Origin: Streptomyces sp. NBC_01235
GTDB lineage: Bacteria; Actinomycetota; Actinomycetes; Streptomycetales; Streptomycetaceae
Assembly: GCF_035989285.1 (NCBI RefSeq)
Contig: NZ_CP108513.1
Location: forward strand, 310,001-374,000
Length of the DNA: 64,000 bases
Direction of reading: 5' to 3'
Part shown: piece after piece, positions 48,686 to 63,865 of the stretch
Numbering within the stretch: the stretch's first letter is position 1
Layout: every line of letters begins with the position of its first letter
Position numbers and translations under genes: made by a program
Notes under the pieces: model-generated
Told to the model about the DNA's origin: nothing
Seen by the model: only the letters and a program-made list of their open reading frames with translations
Database searches by the model: none

Positions 48686-48715
48686 CGCGTCACGGGCCTG
48701 TTGGTGGCGGTCGGG

Positions 48716-49357
48716 TCAGTTCAGGTGGGCGGTGTCGACGGTGATGGAGTCGTTGTCCGTGGCGGTGACGGAGATGTAGCCCGGGTCGCCGTTGCGGTCG
48801 AGGTAGCACACCACGTACGAGACGCCGACGGTGGTCTGACGTACAGGGTGCTCGGTCACGGCCTCCCGGCAGCCTTCCGCCGTGGGGACCACGGACGAAC
48901 TCCAGGCGGCCATCTTGCCGTTGGTGGAGTACAGGTAGCCGCCTTGAAGGTAGATGGCGTCGGTGCCGGCGTCGGCGATCACGGGCGGCGTGTGGGTGAA
49001 GTCGTATCCCGGGGGCGCCTTCTCGCTGTCCGTCTTCATGACGAAGCCGCGTACCAGCGCGGTTGACGGCGAGGACGTCGAGTCGGGCAGGGTCGCGACC
49101 GCCGCGCCGCCGCCTCCGATGACGGCCACGGCCGTGAGGCCGGCGATCAGCGGGTGGGCGTACGCCATGCTGAGCAGGGGCCCGACGACCGGGATCGAGA
49201 ACTTCAGCTGGGTGTTCTTCTGCGTGACCCTGGCGTTGCCACCCGCGGTCACCGTCTGCGCCTGGGACTGATGGGTGCCCGGCCGGGGTGGCACGGAGGG
49301 GTCGCTCTGTGGGGCGTGGTCGCCGAGTTGTGCGCCGCGCATGCGGTCGGTGTTCAT
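48716..49357 (-). CDS. Membrane-anchored protein of unknown function
   Basis: A 213-residue protein with a cytosolic N-terminus (about 75 residues), one or two hydrophobic segments around residues 55-85 (IPVVGPLLSMAYAHPLIAGL and TAVAVIGGGGAAVATL), and an extracellular part with two cysteines (EGCREAV; YVVCYLDRNGD) that may form a disulfide. No family recognised. ATG at 49357 is chosen since upstream codons lack support. It precedes the AraC gene by 30 bases on the same strand and may share its transcript. Confidence 0.65.
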   Translation of the reverse strand: MNTDRMRGAQLGDHAPQSDPSVPPRPGTHQSQAQTVTAGGNARVTQKNTQLKFSIPVVGPLLSMAYAHPLIAGLTAVAVIGGGGAAVATLPDSTSSPSTALVRGFVMKTDSEKAPPGYDFTHTPPVIADAGTDAIYLQGGYLYSTNGKMAAWSSSVVPTAEGCREAVTEHPVRQTTVGVSYVVCYLDRNGDPGYISVTATDNDSITVDTAHLN

Positions 49358-49698
49358 GGCACGGGACGCTAGCGACAGGCGACCCCGCGGTCTTGTTTTG
49401 CCACAGATTGTCGCTATTGGGCATCTTATGGGCGCCAATTGCGATGAAAGTGATCGCCGAGGTGAGAACTTCGGACTTGCTACTCGCCAGTCATATTACT
49501 GAACCGTAACCTACCGACTGCTACCCGAGGTAACCCGACCCTCGCTACGGTCCTGACAGTTCATCTAAGAGCGGTACGGACAGCGGTGGGCGACCGCGGC
49601 CTCGTGCCGCTCGGTCGTCACGGTCCGCACCCCACCGGACCGTCCGCCACCCGAGCCGCAGACGAAGGCTCGGCCTCCCCTTCCCCGGAGGTCCGACC
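49358..49698. other. Divergent promoter region, relatively AT-rich
   Basis: It separates the membrane-anchored protein gene and the lipase gene. Around 49430-49560 the DNA is markedly less GC-rich than its surroundings (GTCATATTACTGAACCGTAA), and GTAACC occurs near 49505 and again as GGTAACCC near 49531. These are likely promoter and regulator sites for the lipase; I cannot assign them. No short gene with a ribosome site was seen. Confidence 0.5.
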
Positions 49699-51024
49699 AT
49701 GCCCACCCCCACCCGCCTGCTGGCCGCAGCCGTCACCGCTGCCGCCTGCCTCGGCGTCACCGCCGTACCCGCCGACGCGACAGCACAGTCGGACGCCGTG
49801 GTCTCGCGCGGCGTCACCATCCCCACCTTCTACAACCCGCCCGCCACGCTCCCGGCGGCCGACGGCACCCTGGTCCGCTCCGAACCGCTCCCCCTCGCGC
49901 TGAGCCTGCCGGGCGTCGACGGACCGCTGCCCGGCACGGCGACCCGCCTGATGTACAAGTCCACGGACTCCGCCGGCCGGCCCATGGCGGTCACCGGCGC
50001 CTACCTCGAACCGACGGCCCGCTGGACGGGCAGCGGTGCGCGGCCTCTGGTCGCCGTGGCGCCCGGCACCATGGGCCAGGGCGACCAGTGCGCCGCCTCC
50101 CTCGGCCTCGAACACCCGCTCCTGGTCAACGGCCAGACCCTGTCCGTCGGTTACGAGGACCTGGCGATCTACCGTCTCCTCGCCCGGGGCATCGCCGTGG
50201 TGGTCACGGACTACACCGGGCTGGGCGCGACGGACCGGCTGCACACCTATGTCAACCGGGTCGACGAGGCGCACGCCGTCCTGGACGCCGTCCGCGCGGC
50301 CCGCTCCCTCGACGGCACGTCGCTCACAGCCGGCTCCCGGGTGGCGCTGTTCGGCTACAGCCAGGGCGGCGGGGCCACGGCGGCCGCCGCCGAACTACAG
50401 CCCTCCTACGCCCCCGACGTCGCCCTCGCCGGGACCTACACCGGCGCTCCGCCCGCCGACCTGGTCGCCGTCACCAAGGCCATCGACGGAAGCGACCTGG
50501 CCGGCGCTCTGGGCTGGTCGGTGAACGGGTTCCTGGAGTCCGACCCCGCTCTCAAGCCGATCGCCGAGGCACACCTGAACGCGGCCGGCCGCGCCGCGCT
50601 CGAGGACCTGTCGACGATGTGCGTGGGTGACGCCCTCCTCGCCTACAACTCGGCGCGCAGCGCCGCCTGGACCACGGACGGGCGTTCCATCAGCGACGTC
50701 GTCGCCTCGGAGCCGGCACTGAAGGCCTTCCTGGCCGACCAGCGCATCGGCGCCCTCGAGCCGACGTCCCCGGTGCGGGTGGCGACCGGCACCGCCGACG
50801 ACCTGGTGCCGCACGCGCAGGCGCGCTCGCTCGCCGCGGCCTGGTGCGCCAAAGGTGCCGACGTCACGTACAAGCCGGTGATCCTGCCGAGCGTCGGCCG
50901 GGCCCTGATCAACCACTTCACGCCGCTGCTCGTCGACCAGGGCGACGCGATCTCCTGGCTGACCGACCGGCTCGACGGCAGGGCCGCCACGTCCAACTGC
51001 GCCGCCCTGCCCCTGCTGCCCTGA
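49699..51024 (+). CDS. Secreted lipase/esterase (LIP family)
   Basis: A 441-residue secreted alpha/beta-hydrolase. Signal peptide MPTPTRLLAAAVTAAACLGV with likely cleavage after ADA. Catalytic Ser221 lies in the nucleophile elbow FGYSQGGGAT; the acid is probably in GTADDLVPHAQA and the histidine in LINHFTPLLVD. The pattern matches secretory lipases of the LIP family. GGAGG lies 6 bases before the ATG. Monocistronic, with the MOSC gene 88 bases downstream. Confidence 0.85.
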   Translation: MPTPTRLLAAAVTAAACLGVTAVPADATAQSDAVVSRGVTIPTFYNPPATLPAADGTLVRSEPLPLALSLPGVDGPLPGTATRLMYKSTDSAGRPMAVTGAYLEPTARWTGSGARPLVAVAPGTMGQGDQCAASLGLEHPLLVNGQTLSVGYEDLAIYRLLARGIAVVVTDYTGLGATDRLHTYVNRVDEAHAVLDAVRAARSLDGTSLTAGSRVALFGYSQGGGATAAAAELQPSYAPDVALAGTYTGAPPADLVAVTKAIDGSDLAGALGWSVNGFLESDPALKPIAEAHLNAAGRAALEDLSTMCVGDALLAYNSARSAAWTTDGRSISDVVASEPALKAFLADQRIGALEPTSPVRVATGTADDLVPHAQARSLAAAWCAKGADVTYKPVILPSVGRALINHFTPLLVDQGDAISWLTDRLDGRAATSNCAALPLLP

Positions 51025-51112
51025 CCCACTCGCGAGGCGGTGGCGGTCGGTGCGTGCCTGCGCGAGGCACCGGCCGCCGCCGGGTCGCCGGCACCGCACC
51101 TAGGCTGGGTCC

Positions 51113-51622
51113 ATGACGGAGATCGAGGTGGTGGAGCTGCTGGTGTCGGCGTCGCACCGGTTCGCCGGGCGGCCCGCGGACGGGCCGTCGGACGGCCCGG
51201 ACGACGAGCTCGTGCGGCAGGTCCAGGTCCGTCGCGGTCTCGGACTGGTCGGTGACCGCTACTTCGGCCGCCCGGCCCACAAGGACGCGTCGGTGACGCT
51301 CATGGCCACGGAGAACCTGCCCCGGCACATCGACGCGGCCGTCGGTCTCCCGCAGACGCGCCGCAACATCCTGCTGCGCGGCGTCGACATCGACGCGTAC
51401 GTCGGCTCGACCATCGTGCTCGACGGCGCGGCCGGTCCCGTGGCGTTCGCCGTGAACCGCCCGGCACGGCCCTGCGCGTGGATGGACGTCACCATCGGCC
51501 CCGGCGCCCAGCGCGCACTGCGCGGCAGAGGGGGCGTGCGGTGCACTCCTCTGTCGGACGGTGTGCTCGTCCTGGGCCGGGCGACGTTCGGCGTCGTCGA
51601 CGCGTCCGCCGTGCGGGCCTGA
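51113..51622 (+). CDS. MOSC-domain protein
   Basis: A 169-residue protein matching the MOSC beta-barrel: GLVGDRYFG, RRNILLRGVDIDAYVG, the conserved cysteine in NRPARPCAWMD and GVRCTPLSDG. MOSC domains bind sulfur or molybdenum cofactor and occur in sulfur-carrier proteins; the role of stand-alone members is mostly unknown. The gene is convergent with the ATPase-type gene at 51647. Confidence 0.75.
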   Translation: MTEIEVVELLVSASHRFAGRPADGPSDGPDDELVRQVQVRRGLGLVGDRYFGRPAHKDASVTLMATENLPRHIDAAVGLPQTRRNILLRGVDIDAYVGSTIVLDGAAGPVAFAVNRPARPCAWMDVTIGPGAQRALRGRGGVRCTPLSDGVLVLGRATFGVVDASAVRA

Positions 51623-51646
51623 GGCCGGCCCTGACGGAACGTCTCA

Positions 51647-52120
51647 TCATGCGTCGGTCAGGCTCAGGCGGGCGACGATCCGTTTGCCCACCGGCGCCCG
51701 TACGACGTCGAGGTCCTCCGCCACGGCCCGCACGATCTCCAGGCCGTGCTGGCCCACCCGCGTCGGATCCGGTGCGCGCGGCGCCGGCAGCACCGGATCG
51801 CTGTCCCAGACGGCGATCTCCACCGCGGAACCGCTGATGCGCAGCTGCAGCAGGACCGGCCCGGGCGCGTATCTGAGCGCGTTGGTGACCAGCTCGCTCA
51901 CCACGAGCTGGGACAGGTCCACGGCCCGCGCCGACACGGGCGGGCCGCCCGGGCGCCGGACGCGGGTGAGGAAGTCGCCCGTGAGCTGTCGCGCCCGGGC
52001 GATACAACCGTCCTTGCCGTCCAATGCCACCGTCGTCTCGGCAGGGGTCCCGTCGGGTGCGGAAAAACCCTGGTCGGGCGGGACAGGTGCCATCCGGACC
52101 GCCTTCACTACCCCGTTCAT
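51647..52120 (-). CDS. ATP-binding protein, RsbW/SpoIIAB-like anti-sigma type
   Basis: A 157-residue GHKL ATPase domain: N-box ELVTNALRYAPG, G1 AVWDSDP and G2 VGQHGLEIVRAV. Streptomycetes encode many such stand-alone serine kinase/anti-sigma-like proteins that act on anti-sigma antagonists. The start at 52120 gives the usual length; the long frame upstream is out of context. The ECF sigma gene lies 700 bases away on the other strand, but direct interaction is not implied because GHKL proteins usually pair with SigB-type factors. Confidence 0.8.
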   Translation of the reverse strand: MNGVVKAVRMAPVPPDQGFSAPDGTPAETTVALDGKDGCIARARQLTGDFLTRVRRPGGPPVSARAVDLSQLVVSELVTNALRYAPGPVLLQLRISGSAVEIAVWDSDPVLPAPRAPDPTRVGQHGLEIVRAVAEDLDVVRAPVGKRIVARLSLTDA

Positions 52121-52149
52121 ATCCGCGCGCCTACCCGCGAACCCACCTC

Positions 52150-52701
52150 CTACGCCCCAGGCGCACCACTCACGCGCACACCGTCCCGGCTGCCGTCCGG
52201 GCTGTGGTCCGCGCTGTCGTCCGGACCTGCCGCGGACTGTGCTCGTGCTCTGCGCGCCGCCACGAACCTGGCCGACACGCCAAGGGTGCCGGCCGCGGCG
52301 GCGAAGACGACGGTGAGCGCGTTCGTCATGTCGTAGGTGCCGCTGCTCTCGTAGGTGGTTCCGTCGTCGAGGACGCAGTCGAAGGCCGGCGGGAAGTAGG
52401 AGGCCCGGTGGGTGACGAGGTGCCGGACGGTGTCCCGCGGGACCTCCTCCCCTCGGCAGGCGGGCGCGGGAGACGAGTCGGCGCCGGACTGCGACTCGTG
52501 CACGGAGAGCGCCACCGCGCCGGCGCCCAGCAGGTAGCAGCCGACCGTCGCCGCGATCGCCATCCCGGCCGACCAGCGCAGCAGGTGCACGGCCTGGTCC
52601 GGCCGCCTTCCGGGCAGGGCGACGGAGACGAGCTTGACCACGATCGCGATGCACCAGAGGGGGCTTGCGAACAGAGTCGCCATTCCTGACAGGGCCAACA
52701 C
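52150..52701 (-). CDS. Membrane protein of unknown function
   Basis: A 183-residue protein with three hydrophobic segments (LFASPLWCIAIVVKLVSVAL; AGMAIAATVGCYLLGAGAVAL; ALTVVFAAAAGTLGVSARF). The loop between the second and third contains two cysteines (PACRGEEV; FDCVLDDG). Family not recognised. GTG at 52701 has GAAGGTGAG upstream; an ATG at 52683 is an alternative. Located upstream of the ATPase-type gene on the same strand with a 29-base gap, so possibly co-transcribed. Confidence 0.65.
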   Translation of the reverse strand: MLALSGMATLFASPLWCIAIVVKLVSVALPGRRPDQAVHLLRWSAGMAIAATVGCYLLGAGAVALSVHESQSGADSSPAPACRGEEVPRDTVRHLVTHRASYFPPAFDCVLDDGTTYESSGTYDMTNALTVVFAAAAGTLGVSARFVAARRARAQSAAGPDDSADHSPDGSRDGVRVSGAPGA

Positions 52702-52804
52702 GGCTGGGGGCTCACCTTCTGTCGTGTACGTCTGTAACGCTTTTCGCGCCTCATTCCAAGAACAGGTGTAGGGCCTTTGACGAACCCGGCGGAAGGAGAT
52801 GCCT

Positions 52805-53449
52805 GTGGATGGCGCGGAACGGTTACGGAGTGGGCCCGCCGCCGCGGTACGTGACCCACGGCTGTTCGAGGAGTTCTATCGGCGCCACGTGGACGCGGTG
52901 ATGCGTTTCGTGGCCCGGCGTGTCGACGACCCGCACACGGCGGCCGATCTGACGGCCGAGATCTTCCTCGCCGTCCTGCACTCGGCCCACACCCACCGGC
53001 CGCACCTCGGCAGCGAGACGGCCTGGCTGTTCGGCATCGCACGCAACGTGGTGTCGTCGGAGCGCCGCCGGGTCGCCCGGGAGGCCGAACGCGATCTGCG
53101 TTTCTCCGGGCGGAGGCTGCTGGAGGCCGACGACATCGTCCGGATCGAGGACAGACTCGACGCGGAGAGCCCGGGGCGACGTGCCCTGGCCGCGCTGGCA
53201 AGGCTTCCCGAGGGCGAGCGGGCCGTCATGGAGTTGATCGCGGTGGACCAGCTGACGGTCACCGAGGCGGCGGCCGCACTGGGCATTCGCCAGGTCACGG
53301 CCCGCGTACGACTGCACCGGGCGCGCAAGGCGCTGCGGAAGGAGGCGGACGTCGAGGCTGCGGAGGCTCCTGCCGCCGCAGGAACGAGCTTCACGGAAGC
53401 CACGACGCCGGACGCATCGATGCTGTACATCGCAAGGGGGGAAGCGTGA
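52805..53449 (+). CDS. ECF-type RNA polymerase sigma factor
   Basis: A 214-residue ECF sigma factor. Region 2: LFEEFYRRHVDAVMRFVARR and TAADLTAEIFLAVL, with AWLFGIARNVVSSERRR. Region 4: LARLPEGERAVMELIAVDQL and VTEAAAALGIRQVTARVRLH. AAGGAG sits directly before the ATG at 52799, too close for initiation; GTG at 52805 has the right 6-base spacing and is chosen. It overlaps the following membrane-anchored protein gene by 4 bases (GTGA). Confidence 0.85.
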   Translation: MDGAERLRSGPAAAVRDPRLFEEFYRRHVDAVMRFVARRVDDPHTAADLTAEIFLAVLHSAHTHRPHLGSETAWLFGIARNVVSSERRRVAREAERDLRFSGRRLLEADDIVRIEDRLDAESPGRRALAALARLPEGERAVMELIAVDQLTVTEAAAALGIRQVTARVRLHRARKALRKEADVEAAEAPAAAGTSFTEATTPDASMLYIARGEA

Positions 53450-54063
53450 GCACCAGGCCGACGTTCGAGGACCGGCTCCTGGACGAACTCAAGAAGGAGA
53501 TCGAGCTGCGCGAGGCCGGAACGTGCCGGACCGGGCCGTCCGAGGTCGGATCGGGCCGGGGCAGGAAGAGGGCTTCCGTGCGTCGTCTGCTCGTTCCACG
53601 CCGGATCGCCTTCGTCGCGGCCGCCTGTGCGGTGGCCTGGCTCGGCGTGGCGGTGGTACCTGGCTCTCCGGGCGACTCGGCGGCGTACGCGGTGGAGCGG
53701 CACGGGGACGGCACCGTCGAGCTCACCGTCAAGGACCAGACCATCGGGATCGAGGCCCAGCGCGAACTCGCGACGAAGGTGCGTCCGTGGGGCATCGAGG
53801 TGACCATTGACGTGTTGGCTCCCGGCTATGTCTGCGAGCGCAGCAAGTTCACCCCGTTCCCAGGGGTGGCGATCGATCAGCAGGGCGACCCTGTACCCAT
53901 CATCCCCATCAAGGCCAGCTGGGACTTCACCCTGCGCCGGGGCAACGTGCTGGCCTTCGAGAACATGGAAGGCATGTCGCGGCCACGCGCGGTCGAGCTC
54001 TACGCGACCAGGAGCGAGGCCAAACCCTGCGTTCCGCTGAAGGTCACGCTGCCCGACAAGTAG
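53446..54063 (+). CDS. Single-span membrane protein coupled to the ECF sigma factor
   Basis: A 205-residue protein: cytosolic basic N-terminus (FEDRLLDELKKEIELREAG), one membrane segment near residues 50-70 (PRRIAFVAAACAVAWLGVAV) and an extracellular part. The topology and 4-base overlap with the sigma gene recall a sigma-regulating partner, but no ZAS-type His-x3-Cys-x2-Cys anti-sigma motif is present. In streptomycetes this arrangement (sigma gene plus small membrane protein) is common and little studied. Confidence 0.7.
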   Translation: MSTRPTFEDRLLDELKKEIELREAGTCRTGPSEVGSGRGRKRASVRRLLVPRRIAFVAAACAVAWLGVAVVPGSPGDSAAYAVERHGDGTVELTVKDQTIGIEAQRELATKVRPWGIEVTIDVLAPGYVCERSKFTPFPGVAIDQQGDPVPIIPIKASWDFTLRRGNVLAFENMEGMSRPRAVELYATRSEAKPCVPLKVTLPDK

Positions 54064-54112
54064 GCCTGTCCCAGCCCGACGAACGCCTCACTGCACAGAA
54101 CTCGGTCCACAT

Positions 54113-55393
54113 ATGGAACCCCCAACCCTCGTCCGTCCATCGCCAGAGCCGTCACCCTCCGCGACCGCACGATCACCCATCCCACGCCTGGGGTGGCTCG
54201 ACGCGTCGCGCGGCATCGCCGCACTCGCCGTGGTGTTCGACCACTCGTCGTACGCGTTCATGCCGGAGTTGCGGCAGGAGCTGATGCCGCAGTTCAACTT
54301 CGGCCGGTACGGCATCATGGTGTTCTTCCTGGTGAGCGGCTACATCGTCCCCGCGTCACTGGAGCGCCGGGGCTGCGTCCGGACGTTCTGGATCGGACGC
54401 ATTTTCCGCGTGTACCCCCTGTGGGCGGCCGCCGTCTCCGCGGTCCTCACCCTGAATCTGCTGGGCATCTCCGAGCTGCGCGGCGGCCTCGACCGGCAGA
54501 GCCTCGCCACCGCGGCCGCCGCCCATGTCACGCTGCTCCAAGAGCTGCTGGGAACACCCAGCCTCCTGCTCGTCCTGTGGACGCTCTCCTACGAGATGGC
54601 TTTCTACCTGCTGGTCGTCGCCCTCTTCACGGTCCGTCTGCACCAGCGGTCGGCGTCGATCGCCGTCACTCTGGCCGTACTCGCCGCCGTGAGCGCGACG
54701 GCGGGGGGCGTGCTGCCGGGCTCCGCCCTCTCCGGCGCGGTCGGCACCGGTCGGCTGGTCGCCCTCGCCTCGATCGCCATGGTGCTCGCCATCTGCTGTG
54801 CGAGCGCCGGACCACCCGCGCTGCGCGTGGCCGGGGGCGTGCTGGGCGGGGTGTCGGCGCTCGTCCTCGTCGCTTTCAACGGCACGGTCCCCCTGTGGGA
54901 GGGCCTGGTGATCCTCTCCGTGATGTTCGTCGGCACCGCCGTCCACCGAGCCCGGAGCGGACAGAGCAGCCGGCGGTGCGCGGCCCGCGCAGCCGTCGTG
55001 GTACTCGTCTGCGCCGTGGGCAGCGCGTACTGGTACGGCGACGGCTCCCACTTCACACGGCGCGGCTGGATCCTTGCATTCCTGCTGGCCGCGCTCACCT
55101 TTGGAGCCGCACTGTCCTGCCACCACCGGCGCATACCGCGCCGGCTGATCGGACTGGGAACGATCAGCTACTCGGTCTACCTGGTGCATCCCGTGCTGCT
55201 GGCGGTGACCGACGGCACGATCGGCCGGTGGCGGCAGGACAGTCCCGTGCTCGAAGTGGCATTCGTCGCCGTGCTGCTGGCGCTGTGCGTACTGACCCAC
55301 CGTTACATCGAACTGCCGGGTCAGGCATGGGGCCGCAGGCTGGCACACCGCTTGCGGCCCGGCTCGCGGAGAGCCACTCAGCCGATGTGGTAA
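54113..55393 (+). CDS. Acyltransferase family 3 membrane protein
   Basis: A 426-residue integral membrane acyltransferase of the OafA/YrhL type: LDASRGIAALAVVFDHSSYA with the catalytic-type His, FGRYGIMVFFLVSGYIVPAS, FWIGRIFRVYPLW and a C-terminal GTISYSVYLVHPVLL. Such enzymes O-acylate cell-surface glycans or natural products. About ten membrane segments. The gene starts 50 bases after the sigma-partner gene and overlaps the convergent chitosanase gene by 16 bases. Confidence 0.85.
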   Translation: MEPPTLVRPSPEPSPSATARSPIPRLGWLDASRGIAALAVVFDHSSYAFMPELRQELMPQFNFGRYGIMVFFLVSGYIVPASLERRGCVRTFWIGRIFRVYPLWAAAVSAVLTLNLLGISELRGGLDRQSLATAAAAHVTLLQELLGTPSLLLVLWTLSYEMAFYLLVVALFTVRLHQRSASIAVTLAVLAAVSATAGGVLPGSALSGAVGTGRLVALASIAMVLAICCASAGPPALRVAGGVLGGVSALVLVAFNGTVPLWEGLVILSVMFVGTAVHRARSGQSSRRCAARAAVVVLVCAVGSAYWYGDGSHFTRRGWILAFLLAALTFGAALSCHHRRIPRRLIGLGTISYSVYLVHPVLLAVTDGTIGRWRQDSPVLEVAFVAVLLALCVLTHRYIELPGQAWGRRLAHRLRPGSRRATQPMW

Positions 55394-56214
55394 CTGTCGC
55401 CGTACACCTTCCAGTCCAGGGGCGGTTCGAGGTCGAGGTTGCCCTTGCGCAGGAAGACGCGTTGGGCGGTGTCGACGCGACTGGTGTCGCTGTGCGCCTC
55501 CTCCTGCTTCATGGCCCAGACCCGGGCATCGAGGAACGCGTTCAGATACGCCGTCTCGTCGCCGCCCTGCGCCGGCGGCTTCGCCTTGGTCAGCGCGCGC
55601 TTGCGGATGTTGCGGAAACTGGTGGGGTCGGTGCCGTCGCCGTGCATGACGATGGCGTCGTAGTAGGCGAACTGACCCAGGACGCGCAGACCGTCCGTCT
55701 TCCCCTGCCGGACGGCAGGGTTGAAGTAGACGCGGTCGCGTTCGTCGTTCTGGGCCTGCTGGAACGCCGTGTCCTGGGCGGCCTTGCGCCAGTCCTTGGG
55801 GTAGTTCGGGTCGAGGCCCGTGTGCGCGTCGGTGCCGTCGACCGCCCGCAGGGCGGGCAGGTACTTGGCGAGGACGTTGCCGGGCTTGCGGTCGGTGTAG
55901 AGCTGTACGAGGTCGAGCATGTCGCCGGTGCCGGAGCAGAAGCCGATGATGCCTGCGGTGTAGCCACGGCCGTCGCCGATGTCCTCGATGTACTGGTACT
56001 GGGCCTTCCAGTCGAGCGAGGAGTTCTCCGCGCTCGACACCAGTTTCATGGCGATCTCCTTCTTCGCCGGGTCGTCGAGGCCTGTGGCGGTGGTGGCCGC
56101 GGTCGCCGGGTGGGCGTCGAGGAGCGGGGCGGTGGCCAGGGCGGCGGTGAGGGCGAGGAAGAAGCGGCGGGAGGTGGGGGTGAGGCCGTCGACCGGCCGG
56201 GACATGTGCACCAC
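55378..56214 (-). CDS. Chitosanase, GH46, Tat-secreted
   Basis: Endo-chitosanase of 278 residues hydrolysing beta-1,4 links in chitosan. The sequence follows the Streptomyces CsnA/CsnN174 pattern closely: GLDDPAKKEIAMKLVSSAEN (catalytic Glu63), then IEDIGDGRGYT (Asp81), FCSGTGDML, QAQNDERDRVYF and GQFAYYDAIVMHG. The signal peptide has a Tat motif, TSRRFFLALTAALA. GTG at 56214 has TGGAG 5 bases upstream and is chosen over the ATG three codons later. A palindromic operator lies about 50 bases upstream. Confidence 0.92.
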   Translation of the reverse strand: MVHMSRPVDGLTPTSRRFFLALTAALATAPLLDAHPATAATTATGLDDPAKKEIAMKLVSSAENSSLDWKAQYQYIEDIGDGRGYTAGIIGFCSGTGDMLDLVQLYTDRKPGNVLAKYLPALRAVDGTDAHTGLDPNYPKDWRKAAQDTAFQQAQNDERDRVYFNPAVRQGKTDGLRVLGQFAYYDAIVMHGDGTDPTSFRNIRKRALTKAKPPAQGGDETAYLNAFLDARVWAMKQEEAHSDTSRVDTAQRVFLRKGNLDLEPPLDWKVYGDSYHIG

Positions 56215-56263
56215 AGTGGCTCCAGGTGAGGTGTGGGGGTGGGGGACTCTGCGTGCAACTGAC

Positions 56264-56276
56264 AGGAAAGTTTCCT
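56264..56276. promoter_or_regulatory. Palindromic operator of the chitosanase gene
   Basis: AGGAAAGTTTCCT, a 13-base palindrome, lies in the chitosanase promoter. Streptomyces chitosanase genes are known to be repressed through a similar palindrome by a ROK-family regulator (CsnR); I recall the motif as very similar but did not check it. No ROK gene is present in the window. Confidence 0.65.
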
Positions 56277-56360
56277 ATCAGGACTACCCGACAGAAGTAA
56301 CCCCATCGAAGCCATGTTCGTGCGATCGAACAAACCGACCCGACGTCACCCGCCCGAGGG

Positions 56361-56693
56361 CTAGAGCAGTTGGATCACGAGGGCGGCCAGGAACCCGATG
56401 AGGCCGACGTGAAAGATGACCATGCAGATCCATTGCGACACGGGCATGCGCCAGGACGTCGCCTGGAGGATCTCCCACTCACTGACCGCGAAGGCGGCCA
56501 GGACCAGGGCGAGCACCTCCCACAGCACGTTCCACCAGCCCGACGGGCTCGACCCCGACATGCCGTCCATCGCGGCCGGGATACGGGTCGCGCGCCCCAG
56601 CAGGACGAGCCCGATGAGCAGCTTGTGCCAGCCATGCCGGACCGCCGGCACGGCGGTCACCGCCCGAGTGGCGGATGTGGATCCTGTAGACAT
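56361..56693 (-). CDS. Small membrane protein, three spans
   Basis: A 110-residue product with three hydrophobic segments: about residues 22-36 (WHKLLIGLVLLGRATRI), 52-72 (NVLWEVLALVLAAFAVSEW) and 85-107 (MVIFHVGLIGFLAALVIQLL). No family recognised. ATG at 56693 is chosen; a GTG two codons upstream is possible. It stands alone between the chitosanase gene (same strand) and the amylase pseudogene (opposite strand). Confidence 0.6.
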   Translation of the reverse strand: MSTGSTSATRAVTAVPAVRHGWHKLLIGLVLLGRATRIPAAMDGMSGSSPSGWWNVLWEVLALVLAAFAVSEWEILQATSWRMPVSQWICMVIFHVGLIGFLAALVIQLL

Positions 56694-56902
56694 TCGCACA
56701 TTTGATCACCCTCCCGCGATGGAAGCCACCGTTCCGGTCGTCCGGGACCAGGCCACCCGCGCCACTCCCCCTCCTGCGAGATCTCTCTACGCCTGGGTGT
56801 CATGTCCCTGTAACTTCCGTTCGCAAGACCCTTCAGGAAGTTGCCGGTTCTTCTTTCGGCACAGGTGACTCCCTCCCCTTCGCCGCCTGTACCGGAAGAG
56901 CC

Positions 56903-58211
56903 ATGAGGCGCGCGCCGAAGACGTCCCGCAGACACCCGCCGCCACGTCCGCTCGCCGTCGCCATGGCGACGGCCGGGTTGTTCGGACTGCTCGCGGGGCC
57001 GTCCGATTCCGATCCCGTCCCGCTGCGGACAACCGCTGCCACATCGAACACCGCGACCGTCTTCTCCTGCACGAAGACGAAGGACTGCGCCGCCACGTAC
57101 CTCCACCACGCGCCCGACGGCGGCGCCTGGACAGTGTCCCCGGTGTGCGGATGGAGGCCGCCTGCACCGACTGGGTGAAACGATCCGTCGATCTCGGCTC
57201 GACCGCGGGACTGCAGGCCACGTTCAACAACGGCAACGGCGTCTGGGACAACAACAGCGCGGACTACACGATCCCGCTCGGCACCACGGCCGTGAAGGAC
57301 CGGACCGTCGCCTCCGGAGCCGCGGAGCCCTGCGCGAGCGAGGACTCCGGCACATGGACGTCGACGGCTTCCGGATCGACACGGCCGTCCATATCCCGCG
57401 TGTCACGTCCGAACCGCCGCTTCCTGCCCGCCATCTACGACCGGGTCACCTCACCCAGAGGTTCGGTACGGACGCGGCGCAAAGCTTCTTCGTCCTCGGC
57501 GAGGCCGGCGCCTTCCTCAACGACAAGTGGAACCGCGGGTCCGTGAACCACTCGGCGCAGTCCTTCACTTGGAAGGAGCGCAAGGAGTACAGCGCGGACG
57601 ACGAGACGGCGGCCATCGAGCAGTTCACCTACGAGAACAACCTCGGCACCGGCAACCAGCCGACATCTCGGTGAGACCTTCCGCGGCATTCCGACGCAGT
57701 ATTACGGCTCGGAGATCGAGTTCCAGAAGGCCCGGCAGATCGACTGCGGGCCGACCTGCCCGCCGGGGTCCACCGGGCGGGCGTGCTTCGGCGACCATCT
57801 GGCCGGTCCGTCACGGCCTCGGACTTCGGCACAGTCGCGAGTGCGAGCGGTGCGGTCGCCACCGCTCTGGCGCAGCCGCTGGTCAGACACCTCCAGCGGC
57901 TCAACCAGATCCGCCGGGCGGTCCCGGCCCTGCAGATGGGCCATTTCCAGACCGACGGGATCAGCGGCGGGATGGCGTTCAAGCGCCATTGCACCAACGG
58001 GAGGACGGAGGGTTTCGCGCTGGTCACGGTCACCGGTGCGGCGGGCTTCACCGGCATCCCGAACGGCACGTACAAAGACGCCGTCACCGGTGACGGGAAG
58101 ACCGTCTCCAACGTCTCCCTGTCGGTGGCCGCGCCCGGCAAGGGCAACCTGCGGGTGTACGTACTGAACGGACCCGGCAAGGTCGGCGCCGACGAGCATA
58201 ATCTGAACTAG
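56903..58211 (+). pseudogene. Shattered secreted alpha-amylase (GH13 with starch-binding module)
   Basis: Pieces of a Streptomyces alpha-amylase occur in order but in changing frames. 56903-57140: signal peptide and SNTATVFSCTKTKDCAATYL with HHAPDGGAW (CBM25-like). 57151-57340: VDLGSTAGLQATFNNGNGVW. 57354: MDVDGFRIDTAVHIPRV (GH13 catalytic region). 57400-57670: RRFLPAIYDRVT, FFVLGEAGAFLNDKWNRG and TAAIEQFTYENNLGTGNQPT. 57676: FRGIPTQYYGSEIEFQKARQ. 57807-58211: VTASDFGTVASASGAVATAL through GKGNLRVYVLNGPGKVG. At least five frame changes and one deletion of roughly 80 residues (before FRGIPT) are needed, and most of the catalytic barrel's first half is gone. Confidence 0.8.
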
Positions 58212-58236
58212 CACCGAATACGGCTCCCTATTTCTC

Positions 58237-58274
58237 CGAGAGTGCCCTGCTTATTGCCCGGCAGTGCACTCTCG
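58237..58274. terminator. Terminator after the amylase pseudogene
   Basis: Arms CGAGAGTGC (58237-58245) and GCACTCTCG (58266-58274), with inner CTGC/GCAG pairing, followed by TTTTC. A plausible intrinsic terminator insulating the following RiPP gene. Confidence 0.7.
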
Positions 58275-58403
58275 TTTTCACACCTGCGACGGAAATTCTG
58301 GCGTGATCACCTCGCGTGTTTCCCGTCACCGTTGACGCCTCGCCGACCCGGCGGTCTACTCGTTCCGATTCCGCGTCAATTCCCCCTGCAGTGGAGGTAA
58401 TCC

Positions 58404-58484
58404 ATGAAGATGTTCGGAGCCCTGAAGAGGAAGATCGCCGGCGAGAAGAGCCTCAAGGCCTACGCCTGGTACATCTGGTACTGA
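58404..58484 (+). CDS. Atropopeptide (tryptorubin-type) precursor peptide
   Basis: A 26-codon gene. The product has a basic 20-residue leader (starts MKMFGALKRK, ends EKSLKAY) and a C-terminal hexapeptide AWYIWY before TGA. AWYIWY is the amino acid sequence of tryptorubin A, and atropopeptide precursors are known to be short with the core at the very C-terminus and GEKSLKAY-like leaders. GGAGG at 58393-58397 sits 6 bases before the ATG. A cytochrome P450 gene follows at 58586, as in described tryptorubin clusters, where the P450 makes the Trp-Tyr/Trp-Trp carbon-carbon and carbon-nitrogen crosslinks. The leader must be removed by proteases from outside the cluster. Confidence 0.9.
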   Translation: MKMFGALKRKIAGEKSLKAYAWYIWY

Positions 58485-58508
58485 GCCGCCGGTGAGTGAG
58501 TGACAAAC

Positions 58509-58552
58509 GCGTGCGCCCGCCATCACCGGTGACGGAAATGGCGGGCGCACGC
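58509..58552 (+). terminator. Strong hairpin between precursor and P450 genes
   Basis: Perfect 15-base arms GCGTGCGCCCGCCAT (58509-58523) and ATGGCGGGCGCACGC (58538-58552) around a 14-base loop. There is no U-run, so it may act as a partial terminator or an RNA-stability element, giving more precursor than enzyme transcript, a common layout in RiPP clusters. Confidence 0.65.
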
Positions 58553-58585
58553 CACTCCGGTCCGTCGCTCCGATGTGGAGATGCC

Positions 58586-59635
58586 ATGCCATCGTCGCCC
58601 TCTCTTACGCAGCAACGCAGGGTCGAATTCGCCCCGCGGATCCGTTCACTGCTGGACGAACACCTCGGGGACGAGGTGTTCCGGCTCGATCCCGGCACGG
58701 TGGGCGTCGGTTCCGCCGGACTCATCGAGCAGGTCATGGCAAGCCGGCCGGCGAACGACTTCGAGCGGCCCACCTTCAAGCCTCTGCTCGGTCGTGCGAT
58801 TCCGAGGACCGAGGCCTCGGCCGTGATGCGAGCCGTGGGCCAGGACGTGCGCGCCGCGCTCGCCGAACCCACCGATCTGTCCGCCGACCTCGCCGGAAGC
58901 TGGCCTCGGGTGGCGCACACCTATCTGCGGGACACCGTCTTCGGCCAGGACCCCCGTCGACTCAAGGTCCTCGTCGACCGGCGGTTGGAGTGGACGCCCA
59001 AGCTGACCTGGACGGTCATCGGCGTGGGGGCCGGTCTGCCGGGGCGCGGCGGGGCGCTCGCGCGTACCTCACGGCTCGGCGCCGGGACGGCCGAGGCGTC
59101 GACGTACGGAGAACGACGGCACGCCATGGGCATGTACCGCCGGGCGGCGGCTCCGGTGTGCTTCACGGTCTCGGCGCTGGTCGCCAACGCACTGTGGCTC
59201 GGCGCTCCCTTCGCGCCCGGCACGCCGAACCGGCACATCATCCACGAGTCGCTGCGGCTGCTGCCGGTGTCGTGGAACGTACTGCGGGTCGCCTCCCCCG
59301 AGTTCACCGCCCTCGACGAACGCGTCGGCCCCACGGACGACGTCCTGATGCTGCCGCTGCTGTCCCACCGCGACCCCGCGCTGTGGGACGACCCCCATGT
59401 GTTCCGCCCCGAGCGGTGGAACGAACTCGACCCGGAGACGGCGCCCGGGTACCTCCCCTTCGGGCACGCCAACGAACGCTGCTGGGGACGCCACATGGTC
59501 CTGCCGCTGGCGGAGCGACTGCTCGACATCGCCCGCCACAACGGCCTCGCACCCGACCCCCGGCAGACGGCGGCCAGGGTTCCGTTGGCCGGCCTGATGA
59601 GCGTGGTCGACGTACGCATGCGCTCCACGCGGTGA
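58586..59635 (+). CDS. Cytochrome P450 of the atropopeptide cluster
   Basis: A 349-residue P450, about 50 shorter than usual. The K-helix ExxR is in HESLRLLP, the PERW motif is in FRPERWNEL and the heme loop is FGHANERCWGRHMVLP with Cys299. The I-helix lacks the usual AGxET: the aligned stretch reads APVCFTVSALVANALWLG, so the acid-alcohol pair is missing. That suits an enzyme making peptide crosslinks by radical coupling rather than hydroxylation. ATG at 58586 has GGAG 5 bases upstream; a GTG at 58496 in frame would run through the hairpin and is less likely. Confidence 0.88.
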   Translation: MPSSPSLTQQRRVEFAPRIRSLLDEHLGDEVFRLDPGTVGVGSAGLIEQVMASRPANDFERPTFKPLLGRAIPRTEASAVMRAVGQDVRAALAEPTDLSADLAGSWPRVAHTYLRDTVFGQDPRRLKVLVDRRLEWTPKLTWTVIGVGAGLPGRGGALARTSRLGAGTAEASTYGERRHAMGMYRRAAAPVCFTVSALVANALWLGAPFAPGTPNRHIIHESLRLLPVSWNVLRVASPEFTALDERVGPTDDVLMLPLLSHRDPALWDDPHVFRPERWNELDPETAPGYLPFGHANERCWGRHMVLPLAERLLDIARHNGLAPDPRQTAARVPLAGLMSVVDVRMRSTR

Positions 59636-59665
59636 AGGCAGAGGGAGTCCCCTCGGCGGGGTCGT

Positions 59666-59938
59666 TCAGGGAGTGCCCGGGGCATCGCCCCGCCAGTCGA
59701 ACCGGCGGTCGGCGGTGCCGCGCCGCCCGTACAGGGCGCGGCCGCCGGGCCCGTAGCGGCCTATCTCCGTGGTCAGCGCCACCTCGCGCAGTTCATGGTC
59801 GGAGCGGTCCGTGATGTCCAGCAGCAGCCCGTCCAGCGGGCCGCCCACCAGATGCGCGTACACGCGGTCCGGGCGGGGGCCGGCGTCGTCGTGGTCGGCG
59901 CCGTAGACCCGGCCCCGCAAGAACTCAACCTCGTCCAT
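59666..59938 (-). CDS. Small conserved-looking hypothetical protein
   Basis: A 90-residue acidic protein (MDEVEFLRGRVYGAD, VYAHLVGGPLDGLLLDITDR, GRALYGRRGTADRRFDWRGD). Not recognised; resembles small proteins common in streptomycetes of no known role. The ATG at 59938 is chosen since upstream in-frame starts (TTG/GTG) lack ribosome sites. It is convergent with the P450 gene (30-base gap), so it is probably not part of the atropopeptide cluster. Confidence 0.5.
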   Translation of the reverse strand: MDEVEFLRGRVYGADHDDAGPRPDRVYAHLVGGPLDGLLLDITDRSDHELREVALTTEIGRYGPGGRALYGRRGTADRRFDWRGDAPGTP

Positions 59939-60107
59939 GACCAGCAGCTTGTCATCCACCACTGACAACGGCCCGCCGTCGGCCTCGTTCGCCGTTTCCC
60001 GCCGTTCTTCGGCCAAGACGGTGGCGGAAACGTGGTGTCCGGGGGCATGCCCCGGCTCAGCGGGTATCCACCCCTTACACGTTGTCGTGTGAGGGGTGGG
60101 GGCCCTG

Positions 60108-60818
60108 ATGGCACGCAGGCGGGAGCGGGCGAACGCCGGTGAGTCGGCCCGTGCCCGGCGCCGGCGGACCGTGCGTGAGCTGCGTGCGTCGGGCCGCTAC
60201 GGGCCACGGCTGCGCGAGGTGTTGCCGGCCCTCGCCACGCTGGTCGCCGTCGCGTGCGGCGCGGTCGGGGGTCTCGCGCTGCTCTCCCGCACGTTCGGCG
60301 GCCCGGCCTGCGCGCTGCTCCTCGTGCCGCTCACGGTCGTCGCCTGCGTCGTACGGCGTCGGTCCCGGCGGCCGGCCCGACGGCGCGGCGGGTACTACAC
60401 CGCCGAGGAGCTGGCCGAGCTGGACATGCCCGCACTGGTGGTCGCCGTGGCCCGGATGCTCCGGCGGGACGGCTGGAGGGTGCTGCCGCTCCCTCGGCAC
60501 GACACCCTCCATCTCGCCGCCCGCGACGGCCGGGGGCTCCTGCTCGACGTGGCGTTCCGCCCGGTGGCCGAGCCGCTGCCCGACGAGGAGTCGGCCTGCT
60601 CCTGCCGGGCACGGATACGGGCGCGGGCCCGGGCCCGGGCCAGTCCCCCGCTGCGGCTCGTCGTGCACCGGGGCACGTTCACGCACCGGGACGAGGTGTG
60701 GGCCGCGCGCGAGGGCCGCACGTATCTGATCGACGGACCCCGGCTTCGGCTGTGGGCGCGCGGCACGCCCTTGGCCCAGGTCGCGGACGGTGTCGTCCCA
60801 GCGCCTCGGCGTACCTGA
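60108..60818 (+). CDS. Membrane protein with restriction-endonuclease-like domain (possible)
   Basis: A 236-residue protein. After a basic N-terminus come two membrane segments (LPALATLVAVACGAVGGLAL; ALLLVPLTVVACVV). The C-terminal part (TAEELAELDMPALVVAVARM, LRRDGWRVLPLPRHDTLHLA, ARDGRGLLLDVAFRP) recalls Mrr-type restriction-like folds found in membrane-anchored streptomycete proteins, but the D-(E/Q)xK catalytic motif is not clear and may be degenerate. GTG at 60096 is an alternative start. Function unknown. Confidence 0.5.
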   Translation: MARRRERANAGESARARRRRTVRELRASGRYGPRLREVLPALATLVAVACGAVGGLALLSRTFGGPACALLLVPLTVVACVVRRRSRRPARRRGGYYTAEELAELDMPALVVAVARMLRRDGWRVLPLPRHDTLHLAARDGRGLLLDVAFRPVAEPLPDEESACSCRARIRARARARASPPLRLVVHRGTFTHRDEVWAAREGRTYLIDGPRLRLWARGTPLAQVADGVVPAPRRT

Positions 60819-61095
60819 GGCCCGCCGGGTCGCGGGAGCTGTCCACCAGGTCCACGTGGTCGAGGACGAAGATCCGGCGGTTCTTGACGGCCGACACGCC
60901 TCGCAGCCGGGCATGGGAGAGGAGGAAGTCCTTCTCCTGCCGATCGTTCACGTCGCCATGGTCGCGGATCACGACGACGTCCGGGTCGCGGGCGAGGGCG
61001 CTCTCCCGGCCGACGGTGGTCCAGGAGTCCTGCACGTCGTCGTGGAGGAGGTTGGTGCCGCAGGTGTAGGGCTTGGCGGCGGTGACGGGTTGCCG
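60800..61095 (-). pseudogene. Fragment of an ABC transporter substrate-binding protein
   Basis: The minus strand reads VTAAKPYTCGTNLLHDDVQD, SWTTVGRESALARDPDVVVI, RDHGDVNDRQEKDFLLSHAR and LRGVSAVKNRRIFVLDHVDL. This is the C-terminal lobe of siderophore- or cobalamin-type periplasmic binding proteins (BtuF/FecB group). The first lobe, signal peptide and lipobox are missing, and no start is present, so this is a relic. Confidence 0.6.
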
Positions 61096-61137
61096 CACTC
61101 CTCCCCGCGGGTGGCGCCCCTGAACGCCCTTTGGACG

Positions 61138-61175
61138 CACCGCCGCCCGGGCCTCGAAGGACCCGGGCGGCGGTG
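61138..61175. terminator. Terminator of the metalloprotease gene
   Basis: Perfect 14-base arms CACCGCCGCCCGGG and CCCGGGCGGCGGTG with loop CCTCGAAGGA, located 15 bases beyond the protease stop on the minus strand. Confidence 0.8.
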
Positions 61176-61189
61176 TGGGGCGTCTTGGG

Positions 61190-63460
61190 TCAGGGAGTGA
61201 GCTGCCAGCGCTGGATGTACCCCACGTCGATCGACGCGCGGTCCTGGACGCGCAGCTTCCATGTGCCGTCGACGGGCTGGGCGGAGGCGTCGACCGTGAA
61301 GGTCTGGTCGACGTCGTCGGCGGAGCTGCCGCTGCGGTTGAGCAGGGAGTAGACGGTGCCGTTGGGGCCGACGAGGTCGACGGTCAGGTCACCGCGGTAG
61401 GTGTGTACGATGTTGACGTAGACCGAGGTGGTGGCGGAGGCGTTGCCGTCGCGGCCCGCGATGGTGACCGGGGACTCCACGGCGGCGCCGTTGTCCGGGA
61501 TGTCGACGCGGGTGGCGTTGGCGTAGATGTACGCGACCCGCCAGGTGAAGGTGTCCGAGACGGACGCGCCGGTGCTGTCGGTGACCTTGACGGTGACGTC
61601 ACCGCTGCCGAGGGTGGTCGGCGTGCCCGAGATCAGGCCGCTCGGGCTGATGCTCAGACCGTCGGGCAGCCCGCTCGCCTCGTAGGTGAGGCCGGCGCCG
61701 GTGTTGGTGGTGTAGGCGTCGACCTGCAGGCTGACGGCCTGGCCGATGCCGCTGGTCTGGTCGGCGATCGGGGCGACGTTGACGCCGAGGGCTATGCGGC
61801 TGCCGACGTTGATGCCGGCCCAGGCGTCGGCGACGGCGAGGTAGGTGGGGCTGTAGGCACCGAACAGGTCGGTTGCGGCCTGGAGGGTGGCGGTGCGGGC
61901 GCCCGCGTAGTTGGTCGACGAGGTCATGTACGTCGTCAGCGCCCGGTACCAGATGGCGGCGGCGTTCTCGATGCCGATGCCGGTGACTGCCTGGCCGTCG
62001 TAGGTCGGGCTGTCGTAGGCGACGCCGTTGACGGTCTTGGCGCCGCTGCCCTCGGAGAGCAGGTAGAAGAAGTGGTTCGCGGGGCCCGAGGAGTAGTGGA
62101 CGTCGACGCTGCCCAGGGTGGAGCTCCAACTGTCGCGGGAGGAGCCGTCCTTGGAGGGCTTGTCCATGTAACGCAGCGGAGTGCCGTCGCCGTTGATGTC
62201 GATCTTCTCGCCGACGAGGTAGTCACCGGGGTCGGCGGCGAGGTTCGAGTGGAACTCGACGGCGGCGGCGAAGATGTCCGAGGTCGCCTCGTTGAGGCCG
62301 CCGGACTCGCCCGAGTAGGTCAGGTTGGCGGTGGCCGCGGTGACGCCGTGGCTCATCTCGTGGGCGGCCACGTCGAGGGCGGTCAGCGGGTGGGTGTTGC
62401 CCGAGCCGTCGCCGTAGGTCATGCAGAAGCAGCTGTCCTGCCAGAAGGCGTTGACGTAGCTGCTGCCGTAGTGGGCCCGGCTGTAGGCGGCGACGCCGTC
62501 GTTGCGGATGCCGTTGCGGCCGTACACGTCCTTGTAGTAGTCCCAGGTGGCGGCGGCGCCGTAGGCCACGTCGACACCGGCGGTCTGGCGGTTGGACGGG
62601 GTGCCGTCGCCCCAGACATCGTTGTCGTCCGTAAAGAGGGTGCCGGTGCCGGAGGTGCCCTGGTTCAGGTCGTACGTCTTGTGCCCGGCGCGCTCGCCGT
62701 CGGTGAGCTGGTACGTCGATCCCGACAGGGTCGTGCCGAGCGGGACCGTGCCGCTGTACTGGCCGGTGCCGGTACCGGTGTGCACCTTCTCGGCGGCCAG
62801 GATCTGCTTGCCGGTCGTCGCGTCGGTGACCACCTGGAGCTCGCTGGGCGTGCCGTCCTGCTGGACGCCCTCGACGAGCGTCTCCCAGGCCAGGACGGGC
62901 TTGCCGGTGCCGGCCCAGACGACGAGACGGGGCGCGTTCTCGGCTTCGGAACCCTTGACCCGGGCGCTCTTCGCGGCCGCGAGGGCCTTGCCGGTGGCGT
63001 TCGACGCGGAGAGCTTCGGAGTGAGGGACGGCAGCGTGAGGGTCGCCCCGCTCGCCTTGGAGACGGTGGTGCGGCCGCTCTTGACGTGGACGACCAGGTC
63101 GCCGCCGAGGACGGGCAGCCCGGCGTAGGTGCGTTCGTAGCGGGTGTGGGTGGTGCCGTCGGCGTCCTGGACGACGTCCTTGACGACGAGCTTCCCCTGG
63201 GCACCGAGGGCGAGTTGGCGGGCCGTGGTGCCGGCCACGGTCTGCGCGCTCTTGATCAGTGAGGCGCGGCGGGCCGGCGACAGGGGCGTCGCGGCGGCTC
63301 CCGCACGGGGCGTGGCGGTGATCTTGGACGGGCCCGGGTCGGCCGGGGCCGCACCGGCGGTGCCGGCGGGGGCACCCAGGGCCAGCAGGGTCCCGATGGT
63401 CGTCAGCGCGAGGGCGGTGGCGCGTCTGCGCGGGAGGGTGGGGCGGTGTCGCCGGGGCAA
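61190..63460 (-). CDS. Secreted neutral metalloprotease, M4 (thermolysin) family, with C-terminal Ig-like and P domains
   Basis: A 756-residue secreted zinc protease. Order: signal peptide (residues 1-38), FTP/PepSY propeptide (about 50-220), M4 catalytic domain (about 230-550) with the zinc motif HEMSH at 367-371 and third ligand Glu391 in GGLNEATSD, a He_PIG-type Ig-like domain (VNVAPIADQTSGIGQAVSLQ; GLTYEASGLPDGLSISPSGL) and a P/homoB domain (YANATRVDIPDNGAAVESPV to the end). The TTG at 63460 is chosen: AAGGAG lies 7-8 bases upstream and the signal peptide begins there. Ends before a strong terminator. Large opposite-strand frames are shadows. Confidence 0.88.
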   Translation of the reverse strand: MPRRHRPTLPRRRATALALTTIGTLLALGAPAGTAGAAPADPGPSKITATPRAGAAATPLSPARRASLIKSAQTVAGTTARQLALGAQGKLVVKDVVQDADGTTHTRYERTYAGLPVLGGDLVVHVKSGRTTVSKASGATLTLPSLTPKLSASNATGKALAAAKSARVKGSEAENAPRLVVWAGTGKPVLAWETLVEGVQQDGTPSELQVVTDATTGKQILAAEKVHTGTGTGQYSGTVPLGTTLSGSTYQLTDGERAGHKTYDLNQGTSGTGTLFTDDNDVWGDGTPSNRQTAGVDVAYGAAATWDYYKDVYGRNGIRNDGVAAYSRAHYGSSYVNAFWQDSCFCMTYGDGSGNTHPLTALDVAAHEMSHGVTAATANLTYSGESGGLNEATSDIFAAAVEFHSNLAADPGDYLVGEKIDINGDGTPLRYMDKPSKDGSSRDSWSSTLGSVDVHYSSGPANHFFYLLSEGSGAKTVNGVAYDSPTYDGQAVTGIGIENAAAIWYRALTTYMTSSTNYAGARTATLQAATDLFGAYSPTYLAVADAWAGINVGSRIALGVNVAPIADQTSGIGQAVSLQVDAYTTNTGAGLTYEASGLPDGLSISPSGLISGTPTTLGSGDVTVKVTDSTGASVSDTFTWRVAYIYANATRVDIPDNGAAVESPVTIAGRDGNASATTSVYVNIVHTYRGDLTVDLVGPNGTVYSLLNRSGSSADDVDQTFTVDASAQPVDGTWKLRVQDRASIDVGYIQRWQLTP

Positions 63461-63865
63461 CGGGTTCTCCTTCGGTGCGACGGTCGGCCGGTGATGGAGG
63501 CCGAGGTGGGACGGGCCGGCGGGGTTGGTGCCGGTCCGGAGCGCTGCACGACAGGCGGGTGGAAGGAGGTGGGGGGTGGGGGGTGATGCGCCGCATGATG
63601 CGGGTGTGAAGGAATGGTGAACTTCGGCAGCAGAGTGGCACTGCGTGCACAGCTTTGTCATGGGAATGCCAAAACAACGGCTTGAATTGACCATGACGTT
63701 CTGGGGATTCGGCCTGCTCGGCACACGTTTTCAGCCGCGGGCGCGCGACACCCCTTCCCCGAAAGGATGAATGCGAGTACCACGACGGCGTGTCGCGGCA
63801 CCGCGGGCCGCACCCTGCGAGTTCAGGTCATGACGGGAGTCGGCGGCGGGGCACGGGAGGCGTGT
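63461..63865. other. Divergent promoter region
   Basis: Contains the promoters of the protease gene (leftward) and of the channel gene (rightward). It is partly less GC-rich (around 63640-63700: CAAAACAACGGCTTGAATTG). No open frame with a ribosome site and no convincing hairpin was found; the leader of the protease transcript may extend over the first 100 bases. Confidence 0.5.

Follow-up and report, generated by a model that had tools for sequence, protein, structure and literature searches.

A predicted tryptorubin-type atropopeptide cassette with an intercistronic hairpin in Streptomyces sp. NBC_01235

Positions 58332 to 59635 of the window, by which we mean the whole 64,000-nucleotide stretch of Streptomyces sp. 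NBC_01235 DNA analysed here, hold a two-gene cassette in which a cytochrome P450 likely crosslinks the hexapeptide core AWYIWY of a small precursor, giving tryptorubin A or a close variant of it. We put the probability of this reading at roughly 0.8. The hexapeptide has what we take to be the sequence of tryptorubin A. Besides the two genes, the cassette contains a predicted hairpin in the intercistronic gap and a promoter-like box upstream of the precursor gene (Table 1).

Table 1. Features of the cassette, in window coordinates
Feature	Position	Strand	Details and basis
Promoter-like element, TTGACG (58332-58337), 17 nt, TCTACT (58355-58360)	58332..58360	+	Motif count; activity predicted
GGAGG, ribosome-binding site of precursor gene	58393..58397	+	Direct reading
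Precursor gene, 26 aa	58404..58484	+	Leader 1-20, KSLK 15-18, core AWYIWY 21-26
Core peptide AWYIWY	58464..58481	+	Translation; boundary by analogy with tryptorubin A, given as a hexapeptide in PMC11450843
Hairpin, 14-nt loop closed by a perfect stem of 15 bp (58509-58523 paired to 58538-58552)	58509..58552	+	Folding; covariation in other clades
GGAG, ribosome-binding site of P450 gene	58577..58580	+	Direct reading; also present in L006 and L035
Atropopeptide-modifying cytochrome P450, 349 aa	58586..59635	+	Pfam, homologs, alignment, tree

The precursor-P450 gene pair and its relatives

Translation of the short gene gave MKMFGALKRKIAGEKSLKAYAWYIWY followed by a stop codon (26 residues), with the ATG lying 6 nt beyond the GGAGG. 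The core directly abuts the TGA stop, has Trp at its second position and carries consecutive aromatic residues. The peptide matched the NCBIfam tryptorubin_fam model NF038372 with 52.9 bits (E 3.3e-14; cut-off 33). Comparison with L006, a locus of the window's own group, revealed mostly synonymous change (pS 0.28, pN 0.08 over 26 codons). Because of the family match and this synonymous bias, the ORF is far beyond what chance would be expected to produce.

The P450 gene lies on the same strand, 101 nt downstream of the precursor gene, and its stop ends at 59635. Its product matched the Pfam p450 model (E 5e-13), and the ExxR residues E221 and R224 as well as the heme-loop residues F292, G293, C299 and G301 were invariant in a 16-row alignment (A1). 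GTG 58496 would give the longest frame, and ATG 58586 is preceded by GGAG 5 bases upstream. We assigned the start to ATG 58586, because the homologs are about 348 aa long among the matches listed and this ATG is conserved in L006 and L035; the GTG start was also rejected because it would place the hairpin inside the coding region. Compared with L006 and L035, the P450 gene had dN/dS ratios of 0.17 and 0.18, respectively. The first-pass annotation had described a 26-codon gene with a perfect ribosome site, encoding a basic leader and the C-terminal core AWYIWY, followed on the same strand by a gene with P450 landmarks. The translation, the GGAGG and the NF038372 match bore out the small gene, the core was read at the C-terminus, at residues 21-26, and the Pfam match, the ExxR motif and the heme Cys established the P450.

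The genome is a single 11.09-Mb contig and contains one P450 of the atropopeptide type; the other four P450 matches had E values of 2e-8 or weaker, the nearest lying about 243 kb away. A search of the PDB matched 202 distinct sequences, and among the best 60 no name pointed to an atropopeptide enzyme; the top one, 9ulw, bears the plain name cytochrome P450.

Atropopeptide clusters are described in PMC11450843 as two-gene clusters with a KSLK motif, Trp at core position 2 and a single P450 that installs the crosslinks, and 683 putative clusters are given there. A protein search with the window P450, in which 7997 candidates were scored, yielded 452 homologs at E <= 0.001; the best among the matches listed (93%, 89% and 84% identical) were all in Streptomyces. 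At a threshold of E <= 1e-60, a P450 match was present in 48 of 392 Streptomyces genomes examined. Two of these genomes, G241 and G303, carry just a 40% identical sister family, leaving an atropopeptide-type P450 in 46/392, the window genome included. Two further draws, which overlap with the first and with each other, gave matches in 12 of 120 relatives and in 66 of 394 genomes at family level, 14 of the 66 having the sister type alone. Named genomes yielded 128 loci, and the 80 best of these included loci from Streptomyces, Amycolatopsis, Kutzneria, Collimonas, Dyella, Luteibacter and Xanthomonas.

A precursor gene lay directly upstream of the P450 in all atropopeptide-type loci examined. 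Our first precursor rule missed L008, L038 and L100 together with three sister loci, and a looser look found all six; KSLK is replaced by KNLK in L008 and L038 and by TSLK in L100. We counted the cores beside 109 distinct P450 rows, after dropping the truncated L091 and L096, which has a stop: 29 were AWYIWY, 20 AWYLWY, 17 AWYGWI and 15 AWYFWY, and six rows, three of them sister rows, had no core assigned in this count. The L100 precursor of Kutzneria sp. 744, MKVARFLMSKISGRTSLKDNAWALWY, starts 149 nt upstream of the P450 match, has TSLK and the core AWALWY, and at 22.5 bits falls short of the cut-off of 33 set by NCBIfam. The string AWYIWY had no occurrence in the literature searched. On sequence criteria, the window pair is a further copy of the known atropopeptide family, with a common core.

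The sister P450 family is 37-42% identical to the window P450 and was represented by 23 distinct loci (L132-L134, encountered again as L139, L141 and L142; L140/L189; and L170-L188). In L134:3269-4285, for example, the precursor starts 207 nt upstream. Sister precursors resemble MKMIKAIVKKFKQDEDLANHAWVLHVI; they are without KSLK and carry a WxxH core ([AS]W..H[VL]I), which suggests a predicted Trp-His crosslink. Two sister peptides gave no match to the tryptorubin model in NCBIfam, and literature searches for the sister core strings and for P450s with Trp-His found nothing relevant in the literature searched, the survey of Nam et al. (cited in PMC13417212) aside from it. The sister family is possibly an undescribed RiPP class.

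Phylogeny, named clusters and the predicted product

In a tree of 115 rows, built with a short IQ-TREE search, a 112-row atropopeptide clade was separated from the sister family with an SH-aLRT of 100. The first-pass annotation had named a P450 position outside this clade as a refutation of its reading, and the tree placed the enzyme inside. There the window P450 belongs to an eight-row group (support 99) with B21-108, NBC_01275 (AWYIWF) and Streptacidiphilus ASG 303 (AWYIWY), which is one among several groups at an unresolved basal fork. The enzymes of Tu6071, SID11385 and G010 fell in a 74-row clade (100) without the window P450, and those of SID11385 and G010 stand beside AWYIWY as well. 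Forcing the window group and the Tu6071/SID11385 group together cost 49 log units, with a p-AU of 0.017 from a test whose groups we had defined with the tree already in view.

We compared the window with named clusters. The tryptorubin A cluster (trp/try BGC), whose P450 is WP_007820080.1 (PMC11450843), is like the window in its tryptorubin core, its KSLK motif and its layout of a precursor and one P450. L025 (G010) and L044 (SID11385), which group with the Tu6071 enzyme, have AWYIWY, the promoter box and a stem like the window, the stems being 12-13 bp long, whereas their leader, MRLLFSLKNK[ML]SQQKSLKAH, differs from that of the window. The Tu6071 P450 itself (P0080, presumably the trp enzyme or a near-copy of it) is 62% identical to the window P450 and lies on a different branch. 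The amyxirubin cluster of Amycolatopsis xylanica (L066) has the same two-gene layout and promoter box, a P450 64% identical to that of the window and a 17-bp stem, but differs in its core, AWYIWW, and in its shorter leader. L208 encodes the ScaA core TWFIWYS and is like the window in its KSLK leader, adjacent P450 and promoter box, but its P450 is 58% identical and its stem 7 bp long. The scabrirubin cluster of Embleya scabrispora (ScaA/ScaB), as described in PMC11450843, has a heptapeptide core and a monocyclic product, unlike the core and the predicted product of the window. The lau cluster of Streptomyces laurentii (LauA, LauB1, LauB2) has the core WYIWY, like the window, and a second P450 that adds an ether bridge (PMC11450843), whereas the next P450 match in the window genome is the one about 243 kb off.

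Parsimony on the cores was carried out over a 143-row tree with 140 ingroup rows, of which six had an unknown core, with one miscut core left in. It placed W, Y and W at positions 2, 3 and 5 of the root, with Ile best at position 4; Tyr was preferred over Trp at position 6 by one change, and Ala and Thr tied at position 1. As whole cores, AWYIWY, AWYIWW, TWYIWYS and TWFIWYS tied at the root. Repeated independent origin of AWYIWY is raised as a possibility in PMC11450843. Because the root states match the W, Y, Ile and W of the window core, retention of an old core would explain it at least as well as repeated invention.

According to the logic set out in PMC11450843 and PMC12352619, bond formation falls to the P450, and release of the hexapeptide to a protease from outside the cluster; LauA together with LauB1 leads to tryptorubin B (PMC11450843). 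If the window pair works like the clusters trp, jum, sva and lau, its precursor would dock by the leader and the KSLK motif on the P450, which would join Trp22, Tyr23 and Trp25 by C-C and C-N bonds, with a loss of four hydrogens by analogy with varsorubin B1. A protease encoded elsewhere would then cut the leader off behind Tyr20, and the same protease may also trim Ala21. The first-pass annotation had suggested that the strain can make tryptorubin A or a differently crosslinked variant, and this holds as a prediction, supported by the clade, the KSLK precursor and the hexapeptide core; tryptorubin A or B is predicted to be the likelier product.

The alternative that survives best is that the same cassette yields a different product, its P450 installing fewer or other bonds, such as a single C-N Trp-Trp bridge like that of ScaB. 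LauA combined with ScaB gives monocyclic WYIW and WYIWY, with m/z of 665.308 and 828.372 (PMC12352619). An identical core thus does not prove an identical product, as the monocycle formed by ScaB on this very core shows, and with the window P450 set apart in the tree from the Tu6071/SID11385 branch, the earlier caution about a variant was justified. By path length, the window P450 is also somewhat nearer to the ScaB-like L208 (1.16) than to P0080 (1.42). By identity, however, it is nearer to the Tu6071 enzyme than to L208, and the jum and amyxirubin P450s, which are 59% identical, share one product (PMC11450843). Taken strictly, a tryptorubin A producer would have its P450 on the Tu6071/SID11385 branch; the window P450 lies off that branch, and its core is identical. 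This position would lower the probability that the window holds the trp cluster, not the probability that it makes tryptorubin. We consider a different set of bonds rather unlikely, and favor tryptorubin A or a close variant as the product.

The intercistronic hairpin and the promoter-like box

The hairpin in the window gap had a z-score of -4.8 against 200 shuffles. Of 102 distinct precursor-P450 gaps, 58 contained a perfect stem with 10 bp or more, as compared to 1 of 102 shuffled gaps; such a stem was also present in 18 of 28 further gaps and in 16 of the 23 sister gaps. Control gaps from the same loci, restricted to loci of at least 62% GC and delimited with a naive gene caller, had such stems in 18 of 120 same-strand and 20 of 51 convergent cases; the Fisher p of 6e-11 for gaps versus controls is not a true probability, as the loci are related. 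The stems in the 58 stem-bearing gaps start a median of 22.5 nt after the stop and end a median of 41 nt before the P450 match, the gap ends being set by protein match, so that a short piece of the P450 reading frame is counted in some gaps. Among the three loci of the window's own group that have DNA here, the stem is 15 bp long in the window, 13 bp in L006 and 7 bp in L035.

Paired changes were observed in other clades. Among the 17 sequences of the AWYGWI clade, both partners vary in 7 of 9 pairs; among 16 sequences of the AWYLWY/AWYIWY clade (18 earlier, before L020 and L034 were left out), they do so in 5 of 14 pairs. The paired cells amounted to 90% and 98%, respectively, as compared to 67% and 90% when shuffled and to at most 47% and 58% when slid, a control in which the structures are favored, since they were predicted from the same alignments as were tested. 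Three smaller clades, taken without controls, had two-sided change in 5/21, 5/38 and 3/13 pairs. The stem sequences differ between clades, and the pairing is kept. Direct reading found no T-run after the window's stem that would mark a classical terminator, and a search of Rfam over 58000-59000 gave a single match (E 0.4), far under the gathering score.

The likely role of the hairpin is in dosage: most transcripts would stop behind the precursor gene, or be shielded from decay up to there, giving much peptide per enzyme. In the sva cluster, a ribosome site added before svaB led to a 100-fold gain (PMC11450843), which by analogy fits P450 supply being limiting. In contrast, 44 of the 102 gaps are without a perfect 10-bp stem, as is L035. 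The window group comprises only three loci with DNA, covariation being seen solely in the other clades, and the stems in ordinary same-strand gaps as well as the missing T-run also speak against a dosage role. It is possible that the hairpin is instead an ordinary terminator of the precursor gene, with a separate promoter for the P450, or an inverted DNA repeat bound by a regulator. Stems are also found in convergent gaps, where terminators are expected, and inverted repeats in DNA can give paired changes too. However, a regulator site is at odds with a stem whose sequence varies between clades while its pairing is kept, and the short distance from stem end to P450 match leaves little room for a promoter. 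We consider both forms of this alternative unlikely and retain the dosage role as the probable one.

The promoter-like box was first seen by eye in six upstream regions, as TTGAC-N17/18-TTCACT or close to it. Of 105 precursors, 47 had the pattern TTGACN-N16..18-TNNACT within 250 nt upstream, the six discovery regions included, as compared to a mean of 0.08 and a maximum of 1 in 50 shuffled sets. TTCACT was present at 33 of the 47 sites. The box was also found in 15 of 28 loci fetched later and in 0 of 23 sister loci. The usual housekeeping -10 element is TAnnnT, from which TTCACT departs; TTGAC with TAnnnT at the box spacing was found in 0 of the 105 upstream regions. The box is likely the promoter of the cassette, and transcription would start at TTGACG/TCTACT, although 58 of the 105 loci are without it and its -10 half departs from the consensus. 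Across the 11.09-Mb genome, TTGACN{18,19}TTCACT had 3 matches versus 4 for the reversed control, and TTGACN{18,19}TCTACT had 3, one of them that of the window, versus 1. No regulon of the box is visible, because these counts are close to those of the reversed controls.

Promoter, terminator, stem-loop and intergenic are terms absent from the main texts of PMC11450843 and PMC12352619, and the hairpin and box were not found described in the literature searched, supplements and the 2022 Angewandte founding paper apart. The broader picture would be that of a self-contained cassette, with its own promoter of odd -10 sequence (TTGACR-N17/18-TTCACT) and a ratio-setting hairpin that may predate the split from the sister family; we see the odds on it as even.

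Chromosomal surroundings and significance

The chromosome is collinear with Streptomyces genome G262 from 45838 to 63743. Three segments, each longer than 1 kb, are missing from this block in G262: 51030-52222, 52725-55377, which encodes an ECF sigma factor, an unassigned 205-aa protein and an acyltransferase, and 56727-58237, directly upstream of the cassette. In the last segment, ORFs of several frames gave a CBM25 match (E 3.9e-18) and a weak one to amylase, well short of the cut-off at E 0.04; the segment is likely a CBM25/amylase-like remnant. An inverted repeat at 58237-58278, read by eye as CGAGAGTGC...GCACTCTCG and followed by TTTT, is likely a terminator that isolates the cassette from this remnant.

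None of ten neighbouring proteins compared with Pfam resembles a peptide-tailoring enzyme. At 61190-63724 (- strand), 1.5 kb from the P450, lies the gene for an M4 metallopeptidase of thermolysin type, likely secreted, which carries an FTP propeptide together with Ig-like and P domains. A role of this enzyme as the leader protease is not supported: the gene is collinear in G262, yet no other locus in L006-L134, with flanks of about 1.5 to 6 kb, had an M4 match at E 1e-15.

The remnant has a bearing on whether the cassette is active. Since it adjoins the cassette and has no counterpart at this place in G262, the locus could be intact yet silent in this strain, a relic of recent descent. However, both frames are intact with few non-synonymous changes, the ribosome sites are conserved, and the promoter box and hairpin are kept in L006, and we regard silence as improbable. 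The weakest alternative, that the small ORF arose by chance next to a P450 with which it has nothing to do, has in its favor that short ORFs are common in the region, but it is ruled out by the NF038372 match, the recurrent pairing with the P450 and the synonymous-biased change, and we give it practically no weight.

The cassette adds a strain to the cases in which AWYIWY stands beside P450s of separate branches, a natural experiment on whether the number of bonds is set by the core or by the enzyme. If the hairpin and the box work as proposed, they would offer handles for raising yield, as well as a DNA signature for clusters whose precursor ORF is unannotated.
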